A DNA stretch of 64,000 bases from Saccharopolyspora phatthalungensis (GTDB taxonomy: Bacteria > Actinomycetota > Actinomycetes > Mycobacteriales > Pseudonocardiaceae). Positions 11,022 to 32,466 of the stretch are shown here, piece by piece. The stretch lies in NCBI RefSeq assembly GCF_014203395.1, contig NZ_JACHIW010000001.1:1798001-1862000 (forward strand), read 5' to 3'. The translations under genes and the position numbers were made by a program. How positions within the stretch are numbered: position 1 is the stretch's first letter; the number at the start of each line of letters is the position of its first letter. The notes beneath the pieces were generated by a model that saw only the letters and a program-made list of their open reading frames with translations, was not told the origin of the DNA and made no database searches.

Positions 11022-11107
11022 GGAGGATTGGCCGAGCGGCCTAAGGCGCACGATTGGAAATCGTGTTGGGTTAATAGCCCTCACGGGTTCGAATCCCGTA
11101 TCCTCCG
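11022..11107 (+). tRNA. tRNA-Ser (anticodon GGA)
   Basis: Acceptor stem GGAGGAT/ATCCTCC with G discriminator, anticodon GGA at 11056-11058, long class II variable arm, and T-loop GGGTTCGAATCCC. CCA is not encoded. Confidence 0.96.
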
Positions 11108-30203: not shown

Positions 30204-30287
30204 AGCAGGAAACCCCCTGATAAAGGGGGTTTCCGACTGTCTCGACCAGACGCGCCCGAAGGGATTCGAACCCCTAACCTTCTGATC
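30204..30287. repeat. Left attachment-like repeat with truncated tRNA-Arg 3' part
   Basis: Positions 30251-30287 repeat the tRNA-Arg 3' end from the acceptor to the 3' side of the anticodon stem, ending at TTCTGATC. After that the sequence departs from a tRNA (TCGTTTCC). Positions 30208-30234 repeat the downstream hairpin (11-bp stem, loop changed). Two bases are missing from the copy near 30252 and the hairpin arm carries changes. Confidence 0.85.
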
Positions 30288-30625: not shown

Positions 30626-31564
30626 TTATTTTCGACGGCCCTTAGCCGGGGTTGCAGCTTTGTTCTGCAAGTACTGCTCGAACTCAGGGATCGCCAGAAG
30701 TACGGCGAAATCTGGGTGCGTCGCAACTCGATGCCGAAGGGTTCCAAGGCGATTCTCGGCGCTCGCGTCGCGGGCCACACTGAGAGCGTGACCGACTACT
30801 CCGTTGATTCGCTGGGCAGCTTTCTGGTGATCTCCGGTAAAGTTGGCTACAGCCAAAGCTTGCCACAGTAGCCCCGTCGTCACCTGCTGAGGAACATTCG
30901 GTTCGGCTATTACCTCGACACCCTCAGCGAGCTGGAACCACTCAACTTCTTTTCCTTGATGCAGTGTGCGACCCCACGCCAGGGCGTTTCGCCGTAGATC
31001 CTTCTTTGACGCGACCGCGTCCAACCGTGTCCCGTGACTGGTCACGGGCCGGTCCAATCCTGGAACGAAGAACACATACCCGGGCAGCAGGACACGGTTT
31101 AATGCGAGCACGCCTGCCGCTGCGGATACCTCCGCTTGCTCGATCTCTGCGAGCGCCAAGCTTGGATCCACATATCGGTCTGCGAATCTATCTAGAAACC
31201 TGTCAGGCACCAGAAGATGCGATGCGAATCGATTTGCTTCGGCCTCCTGGTTTACGCCGAACGGACCGTGTGGTTGGCGATTGGACTCAGGTCCGGTATC
31301 ACAACGGACAGTGTCGACATGCCAACCGATAACCACATGCCCGAGTTCGTGCGCGATCGTGAACCGCTGTCGTCGCCAAGCTTGTGTGGCGCCAACAAAG
31401 ATCATCGGTCGCTCGCTGGACAGCACCGCGATGCCGTCGCAGTCATACGGCCAGTCGCAAACTTCGAAGTCGGCGAATTGCTCGGCCAGCTCTTGGACGT
31501 CGACCGGAGGGTGCAGATCGTAGCGATCGACCAACTCGGCTGCCAAAAGCTGCTCAGCAGTCAT
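30626..31564 (-). CDS. ImmA/IrrE-family metallo-endopeptidase
   Basis: 312 residues. Zinc-peptidase motif HELGH at ~72-76 (RFTIAHELGHVVIGWH), with a further Glu-rich helix QEAEANRFASHLLVP (~106-120) supplying the third ligand, exactly the ImmA/IrrE layout. The second half is a long helical domain with no known family. In phage and mobile elements such proteases cleave a repressor or antitoxin to switch on genes. Its ATG lies inside the preceding small gene (11-bp overlap), so the three genes are tightly coupled. Confidence 0.88.
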   Translation of the reverse strand: MTAEQLLAAELVDRYDLHPPVDVQELAEQFADFEVCDWPYDCDGIAVLSSERPMIFVGATQAWRRQRFTIAHELGHVVIGWHVDTVRCDTGPESNRQPHGPFGVNQEAEANRFASHLLVPDRFLDRFADRYVDPSLALAEIEQAEVSAAAGVLALNRVLLPGYVFFVPGLDRPVTSHGTRLDAVASKKDLRRNALAWGRTLHQGKEVEWFQLAEGVEVIAEPNVPQQVTTGLLWQALAVANFTGDHQKAAQRINGVVGHALSVARDASAENRLGTLRHRVATHPDFAVLLAIPEFEQYLQNKAATPAKGRRK

Positions 31565-31907
31565 TCTGTTGCGGCAACCGTCCGGTCTGCTTTAGCCAGT
31601 GGAGGACCCCAGCTGCCTCAGCGTCATTGCCAGCACGTGCTGCGGCAGCCACTACCCCACCAAGTTCTGCGACCTCAGCCGACGGGCGGTTCATACGCTT
31701 TCCCGCGATTGCAAACCTCAGCGACTCGGGGCGTTCCACCCACAAGGCGTACTCGTCGTCCGTCAACCCTAAGTAGCTGGCTAGGGACTGAACGCGGCTG
31801 CACGGGGCGCCATCAGCGTCGTGCCAGGCGTCGACCCAGTCGTCAATGTCATCGAGCAACGCCTTACCGGCAAGGTGCGCTTCGACGAAGCTCGCTTGCT
31901 CAGACAT
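31554..31907 (-). CDS. Probable antitoxin or immunity protein of the E3-type ribonuclease
   Basis: 117 residues, acidic and helical. The segment VQSLASYLGLTDDEYALWVERPESL resembles the short YLG(L/M)TxxEYxxWVxxP motif seen in many small antitoxin-like proteins; this is recalled, not searched. The ATG overlaps the toxin stop by 8 bp and has a strong GGAGGAAG site; its own end overlaps the peptidase start by 11 bp. Position between toxin and protease argues for antitoxin/immunity, possibly the protease's substrate. No HTH is obvious. Confidence 0.7.
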   Translation of the reverse strand: MSEQASFVEAHLAGKALLDDIDDWVDAWHDADGAPCSRVQSLASYLGLTDDEYALWVERPESLRFAIAGKRMNRPSAEVAELGGVVAAAARAGNDAEAAGVLHWLKQTGRLPQQNDC

Positions 31908-32133
31908 CGATCTTCCTCCCTCGCACCGGGCCACTGATCATTTCACCTGACACAGCGTCCAAGACGCCTAGGTGCTTCCCTCGCTTGTTGTACACCTCGA
32001 TGTGCCCATGCAGCGCGTCCCACTCGTAGTATCGGTCACCACGGCCGTTACGCCAGCGTTTTCGACCGTTAGTTGCACCGCATGAGTGCTGCGTGTCCAG
32101 GAAACAGGGCTGTGGTCGTGGTACCCCGGCCAT
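31900..32133 (-). CDS. Colicin E3-type ribonuclease domain protein (toxin)
   Basis: 77 residues, nearly all of it the E3 cytotoxic ribonuclease fold: RWRNGRGDRYYEWDALHG then HIEVYNKRGKHLGVLDAVSGE. The catalytic Asp-x-x-His-x-x-x-Glu spacing of colicin E3 is kept (Asp ~39, His ~42, Glu ~46). E3 enzymes cut 16S rRNA in the decoding site. There is no translocation or receptor domain, so it would act inside its own cell or be part of a larger assembly. The ATG at 32133 lies 11 bp after AAGGAG; a longer GTG/ATG start at 32217 is possible. First gene of the operon. Confidence 0.83.
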   Translation of the reverse strand: MAGVPRPQPCFLDTQHSCGATNGRKRWRNGRGDRYYEWDALHGHIEVYNKRGKHLGVLDAVSGEMISGPVRGRKIDV

Positions 32134-32342
32134 CAACGAAGCTGCTCCTTGACCCGTAGGGGCGCAACCGGCGCCGCCTAACCAGAAGGAATCTATTGGA
32201 GCCCTCAACACGTACATGGGACGGGGTCAGAAGTCGCGCCGCAGTGCCGAAGTGCTCGATCAGGTCGTTCGCGCCGGCGATGGCCAAAAGTGGCAATAAA
32301 GTGGCAGCGGGGTCGCGGCGATAATCACACCGTGACCCCCCG

Positions 32343-32382
32343 GACAGCAGGAAACCCCCTGTTCAGGGGGTTTCCTGCTGTC
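32343..32382 (-). terminator. Terminator of tRNA-Arg, part of the right repeat
   Basis: Perfect 19-bp stem (GACAGCAGGAAACCCCCTG and its complement) with a two-base loop, 12 bp past the tRNA 3' end on the minus strand. Confidence 0.85.
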
Positions 32383-32430
32383 TCGACCAGACGCGCGCCC
32401 GAAGGGATTCGAACCCCTAACCTTCTGATC
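32346..32430. repeat. Right attachment-like repeat within tRNA-Arg(ACG)
   Basis: Shares its 3' tRNA half and downstream hairpin with 30204-30287. Identity stops at TTCTGATC, just before the anticodon, typical of crossover within a tRNA gene. Confidence 0.85.
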
Positions 32431-32466
32431 CGTAGTCAGATGCTCTATCCGTTGAGCTACGGGCGC
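32394..32466 (-). tRNA. tRNA-Arg (anticodon ACG)
   Basis: Acceptor GCGCCCG/CGGGCGC, anticodon ACG (+ strand 32431-32433), T-loop GGTTCGAATCC, CCA not encoded. A34 of this tRNA is the substrate of TadA, encoded at 15629. Confidence 0.96.

Follow-up and report, generated by a model that had tools for sequence, protein, structure and literature searches.

The window, i.e. the whole stretch of 64,000 nucleotides of Saccharopolyspora phatthalungensis DNA that was analysed, carries three consecutive minus-strand genes, for an E3 nuclease, its partner and a peptidase, flanked by direct repeats next to a tRNA-Arg gene. In positions of the window, the features are:

31900..32133, minus strand: predicted stand-alone colicin E3-type 16S rRNA nuclease (toxin), 77 aa; PF09000 at 6.5e-16, colicin E3 structures at 1.3e-9
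31554..31907, minus strand: acidic antitoxin candidate, 117 aa, with an N-domain (~4-72) and a C-terminal tail (~84-113); phrog_12828 family, AlphaFold2 model, placement behind E3
30626..31564, minus strand: ImmA/IrrE (M78) zinc peptidase, 312 aa; PF06114 at 5.8e-14, zinc site, IrrE structure match
32393..32466, minus strand: tRNA-Arg(acg), the integration target; ARAGORN, Rfam RF00005
32352..32430, no strand: att-like direct repeat on the tRNA side, extending into the 3' end of tRNA-Arg and also found at the borders of elements in other members of the genus
30211..30287, no strand: distal att-like direct repeat, consisting of a terminator-like hairpin and 37 bp of the tRNA-Arg 3' end
32204..32299, plus strand: remnant of a pSAM2-type tyrosine integrase (last 31 codons and stop), from its translation

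The E3 and partner genes overlap by 8 nt (ATGTCTGA) and the partner and peptidase genes by 11 nt; AAGGAG lies 11 nt upstream of the E3 start at 32133, and GGGAGGA just upstream of the partner gene. The first-pass annotation had given the module as 31554..32133, which covers E3 and the partner but leaves the peptidase outside and the minus strand unstated, whereas its small acidic second protein with an 8-bp overlap and its ImmA/IrrE-like zinc peptidase with an 11-bp overlap both stand (a net charge of -9, against +5 for E3, and an intact zinc site, respectively). The 8-nt overlap is present in 9 of 15 tabulated loci (with start codons chosen by hand), and the arrangement as a whole, i.e. an adjacent and probably co-translated toxin and protein partner in conserved order, is that of a type II toxin-antitoxin system. 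The sole promoter-like match is not located 5' of E3 and is no commoner than in shuffled sequences. In their own genome, E3 and the peptidase have one match each (E <= 0.001).

Judged by its sequence, the 77-residue protein is a colicin E3 nuclease domain on its own, in which the catalytic residues are conserved. The PF09000 domain spans residues 22-75 (58.9 bits against a cut-off of 22), and D39, H42, E46 and R73 align with D510, H513, E517 and R545 of full-length colicin E3, which we take to be its catalytic residues; all four are invariant in the 24 aligned stand-alone members. The value of 1.3e-9 is the best one obtained against the colicin E3 structures in the PDB. The receptor and translocation domains of a colicin-type bacteriocin are absent from the 77 residues. 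This agrees with the earlier reading of the protein, from its Asp-x-x-His-x-x-x-Glu motif, as a colicin E3-type ribonuclease without import domain, and the profile search that had been proposed as a check does return the E3 domain. From the conserved E3 residues we infer that the protein cuts 16S rRNA at the decoding site. A longer frame, beginning at 32217, is the alternative, but the start at 32133 is favoured because of the AAGGAG upstream of it and because 98 of the 124 stand-alone homologues measured are 76-78 aa long, in a survey that admits only lengths of ~42-135 aa. Of 2155 candidates in the profile search, 517 proteins reach E <= 1e-8, and the 120 matches listed of these 517 include Actinomycetota, Pseudomonadota, Bacillota, one Acidobacteriota and one Ferruginibacter record.

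The 117-residue partner has no Pfam match, and the 44 aligned members of its family give best single matches of 0.0045 (Pfam) and 0.015 (NCBIfam), to scattered families, while 42 of the 44 match phrog_12828 (function unknown). By these searches it belongs to an unnamed family. The Pfam search did not recognise the partner as an Im3-type immunity protein; no HTH was identified in it either. AlphaFold2 predicts a confident helical N-part (~4-72, pLDDT ~90), a pLDDT below 50 for residues 77-85 and low-confidence helices around those residues, and fold searches gave no reliable match. The partner is acidic in 11 of 12 compared loci (net charge of -8 to -15, the exception being L012 at +1), whereas the E3 protein ranges from 0 to +6 across the 12.

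In the peptidase, H72, E73, H76 and E107 (HExxH plus the downstream Glu) are invariant in all nine aligned sequences, each of which matches PF06114/M78, and the window protein (P0003) matches the IrrE structure at 3.5e-5. Beyond the catalytic part lies a C-terminal region of ~150 residues in which N254-G255 is invariant and for which no convincing family match was found; the profile search gave no HTH match in P0003. Of the related profiles, capP is matched at 1.6e-23, the RmrA models over the peptidase part only (~42-156), and PD-Lambda-2_B at only 0.033.

The same gene order, which the first-pass annotation had proposed to look for in other actinobacteria, does occur there and also beyond. 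Besides the window, E3, partner and IrrE stand in this order in 12 further distinct loci, namely in genomes of the same class (L011, L012, L024), a Limisphaerales MAG (L004), viral contigs (L020, L021, L022, L031, L058, L059 and L062, with the IrrE frame of L058 lacking its N-terminal part) and a gut phage record (L009). The E-values together with this recurrence exclude chance. Within the class, the E3 domain (1e-8) is found in 10 of 394 genomes and as a short frame in five (G000, G116, G368, G150, G376), and a separate search for the IrrE subfamily (E <= 1e-30) returned three of the 394 (G000, G116, G368), all of them among those five. The partner family (E <= 1e-5) occurs in 3 of 396 genomes of the phylum (G000, G116, G150), again all with a short-frame E3, and it appears that some relatives of the partner occur together with relatives of E3 in one genome or contig (e.g. 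P0008 and P0034 of Thermomonospora cellulosilytica). A viral M78 scan, in which 80 of the 296 loci found were kept, contains three sound loci with E3 and partner, and these hold the three best IrrE scores among the 80; a fourth such locus, L114, was set aside as a chimera. Over 12 loci the protein distances of E3, partner and IrrE are correlated (r of 0.70, 0.78 and 0.83, permutation p 0.0001 each), a correlation that includes the signal of common descent.

Comparison of these loci with others indicates that the partner is modular, consisting of the N-domain and a C-terminal tail. A scan for partner homologues covered 12 loci where E3 stands in another setting, and in three of them (L015, L016, L017) the N-domain, without the tail, is the gene directly behind E3 (3e-18, 1e-19 and 5e-17). 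In L015 and L016 the E3 domain is the C-terminal part of long frames (2099 and 2316 aa), while in L017 the E3 frame is 92 aa and the start codon of the partner is uncertain; no IrrE was found in the fetched DNA of the three (~1.2 kb downstream). The other nine have no partner homologue, and in eight of these the downstream frames listed are unrelated or absent. Behind E3 in very long toxins, the N-domain thus occupies the place of an immunity gene, which makes neutralisation of E3 its most likely function and lends independent support to the earlier description of the second protein as a probable antitoxin.

The tail, on the other hand, goes with the peptidase. The tail model matches the partner in all 12 fetched loci with this IrrE, seven of which were used to build it (L009, L031, L058, L059 and L062 were not), and the window carries the tail by construction. 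No tail is present in any of the six E3 loci in which the search gave no IrrE, i.e. L015, L016 and L017 as well as the Corynebacterium loci L006 and L007 and the viral L023, the latter three having E3 and a tail-less partner with no IrrE within ~5 kb. Fisher's test of 13:0 against 0:3, a count without the three toxin-type loci, gives 0.0018 for loci that are not independent of each other; among those with tail and IrrE, L031, L058, L059 and L062 look close. In Gordonia phages and genome G150 a different C-terminal part of the partner is accompanied by a different, shorter M78 peptidase. Since tail and IrrE are jointly present and jointly absent, the tail is probably the target of IrrE.

The N-domain also occurs without E3. 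A viral scan with the partner profile gave at least 24 loci, two of which repeat known modules, and 21 of the 22 newly scanned hold, among the matches listed, the N-domain only, the DNA fetched for them matching neither E3 nor IrrE; L040 and L041, both among the 21, seem to be identical. These 21 loci indicate that the domain is not tied to E3 alone, and the E3-less viral proteins may be counter-toxins or may reflect a more general role of the domain. Some very large viral contigs are among those that encode stand-alone N-domain proteins (L033, L035, L037, L039, L042, L043, L045, L046, L049, L050 and others), which are possible virus-encoded E3 neutralisers.

Three further arrangements were noted. 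One E3-partner pair is preceded, at a distance of a few hundred bases, by a stand-alone N-domain gene for 74 aa (L063:4344-4568). Corynebacterium stercoris (L005:4911-5419) has a C-terminal E3 fragment with two N-domain genes, apparently a decayed module. In the Gordonia phages LitninMcQueen (L008, genes 45-48) and Kamaru (L191, genes 46-49), the genes annotated as HicA-like and HicB-like are E3 and an N-domain partner, and this pair sits between an HTH/immunity repressor and a short IrrE with a tyrosine integrase.

As regards the surroundings of the cassette, the insertion in a tRNA with flanking direct repeats is that of a pSAM2-type AICE. Between the distal copy and 32352-32430, 37 bp are identical and the neighbouring 45 bp agree at 82%, and the GC content is ~58-61% inside the island versus mostly 65-72% outside. 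From the integrase remnant to the att site, the sequence is ~80% identical to the end of an element in G003 and 73% to that in G001, both in the same tRNA (85% and 80%, respectively, if the tRNA is counted in). RepSA (7.4e-154), FtsK, GntR and an integrase mark the G003 element as pSAM2 type, whereas in the window island no RepSA, FtsK/Tra or whole integrase was recognised and 31 integrase codons are left. By these likenesses, the cassette is the surviving cargo of a decayed pSAM2-type element in tRNA-Arg, and to be the last cargo is what would be expected if its loss is costly. Of 17 loci, only two (G368 and one Gordonia phage) gave a crude integrase motif in the vicinity of the cassette, so that a mobile setting is established for the window and the Gordonia phages only. 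In G368, an integrase-like frame (L107:7369-8007, by the crude motif only) converges on the end of the IrrE gene of the cassette.

The tRNA-Arg(acg) gene is an integration hotspot in the genus (window 32393-32466, L093-L098), with elements of ~1.3-19 kb. The tRNA/right-flank query is matched in all 22 genus genomes, including that of the window (in G013 over 30 bp only), and in 5 of the 11 regions examined the repeat recurs over 35 bp or more, bounding elements of ~1.3, 10.9, 11.7, 12.5 and 19 kb; of the remaining regions, one contains a partial copy of 17 bp, while five lack a second copy in the fetched stretch. The other four of the five tRNA genes of the window (at 11022, 14803, 32508 and 42447) are all tRNA-Ser, with four different anticodons.

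Altogether, the E3-partner-IrrE unit looks like a growth-arrest switch, and the reading given somewhat better than even chances is that of a type II-like toxin-antitoxin module with its own protease, in which IrrE releases the toxin by cleaving the partner. The 77-residue E3 nuclease would be the agent that cuts 16S rRNA at the decoding site, the N-domain of the partner would block it, and the tail, after a flexible hinge, would be the handle for the IrrE protease. Other ImmA/IrrE proteins have single-stranded DNA, DNA damage or infection as triggers; here too a signal, possibly single-stranded DNA, DNA damage or infection, would activate cleavage of the partner by IrrE, upon which the freed toxin would stop translation. 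The module, once cargo of a pSAM2-type element, would have outlived the decay of that element, as addiction would predict, and the remnant does keep three intact ORFs. A wider version, which is tentative and on the unlikely side, has the N-domain as a portable E3-immunity domain that serves as antitoxin of intracellular modules, as immunity protein of giant toxins and as stand-alone viral neutraliser of 65-120 aa, with tail and IrrE making the immunity conditional, i.e. a ribosome-killing switch for infected cells.

Instead of releasing the toxin, IrrE could be part of its neutralisation, either by trimming or binding the tail-bearing partner to activate it or by being itself a second antitoxin (as in RosmerTA). 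Such a role, for which the joint occurrence of tail and IrrE also speaks, has parallels in a protease-domain protein that PMC10440598 reports as the antitoxin of RosmerTA, and in PD-lambda-2, whose peptidase-bearing component is itself toxic according to PMC9519451. It seems unlikely here, since E3 with a tail-less partner and no IrrE nearby in the two-gene loci L006, L007 and L023 means that neutralisation need not require IrrE, and P0003 has no HTH match. A distinctly unlikely option is a plain addiction module of an integrative element, in which E3 and partner stabilise the element and IrrE has a regulatory task (e.g. cleaving a repressor) without any release of toxin. The hotspot with pSAM2-type elements in relatives and the place of the variant between HTH/immunity repressor and integrase in Gordonia phages speak for it, but no HTH repressor gene was recognised inside the window island, and the common variation of IrrE and tail points to the partner as substrate. 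That the genes are a non-functional leftover, i.e. hitchhikers in a decaying element with a toxin that is unexpressed or inactive, is very improbable: despite an element reduced to 31 integrase codons, with no other element genes recognised, and a promoter-like match that is neither upstream of E3 nor in excess of shuffles, the three ORFs, the catalytic residues, the overlaps and the ribosome-binding-like sites of the first two genes are all intact.

The first-pass annotation did not include the modularity of the partner or the origin of the cassette as a remnant of a pSAM2-type element in tRNA-Arg. Peptidases of the ImmA/IrrE type are very often encoded next to toxins and repressors, but few of their substrates are known. 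Here, matched natural versions exist in two forms: in one the protease is present and the probable antitoxin has a single short tail, in the other both are missing. This makes protease recognition and toxin release directly testable by swapping the domains of a small protein. The answer would in addition show how an rRNA-killing domain passes, together with its antidote, between the long toxins of warfare and modules for stress or defence inside the cell.

With respect to known systems, the likeness to the colicin E3 and pyocin S6 cytotoxic domain (PF09000) lies in the nuclease domain, including the residues equivalent to D510, H513, E517 and R545; without translocation or receptor domain in its 77 aa, the window protein was rejected as a colicin-type bacteriocin, and the bacteriocin form examined has an annotated colicin E3-like immunity gene, whereas the window partner has no Pfam match. 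The pSAM2-type actinomycete integrative and conjugative elements share with the island the tRNA target, the direct repeats and the tail of the integrase, but not RepSA, FtsK/Tra or a whole integrase. Like CapP (a CBASS regulator) and ImmA of ICEBs1, the peptidase is an M78 protease beside the gene of its (here putative) substrate. The substrate of CapP is an HTH repressor. So is ImmR, the substrate of ImmA (PMC2701414), whereas no HTH was identified in the window partner.

ImmA/IrrE-type peptidases are also found in two systems of toxin-antitoxin kind that are reported to act against phages, namely RosmerTA and PD-lambda-2 (PMC10440598 and PMC9519451, respectively). RosmerTA has another toxin and an antitoxin, RmrA, that carries the ImmA-type peptidase, often with an HTH, whereas the window has a separate partner gene and no HTH match; with a match to RmrA over the peptidase part only, membership was rejected. 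PD-lambda-2 combines a HigB-like toxin, an Xre/HigA-like-peptidase fusion and a P4-antitoxin-like third gene, and with an E3 toxin and the poor PD-Lambda-2_B score the window module was not assigned to it either.

A similar design is that of the three-component toxin-antitoxin systems with a COG2856 protease, predicted in 2009 by Makarova and colleagues with a proposed cleavage of antitoxin or repressor, which likewise have a toxin, a putative antitoxin and an ImmA/IrrE zinc peptidase in one operon (PMC2701414). Those systems have Xre HTH antitoxins, often fused to the peptidase, and RelE or PIN toxins (PMC2701414), while the window has an E3 toxin, an unnamed helical partner and a separate peptidase. 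The first-pass annotation knew of no description of its three-gene arrangement; this holds for the E3 version, as a limited literature search found no paper that joins E3 with IrrE in one module, but not for the general architecture, given the 2009 prediction. The comparison thus suggests that the E3 version is an addition to an already predicted protease-linked toxin-antitoxin design.
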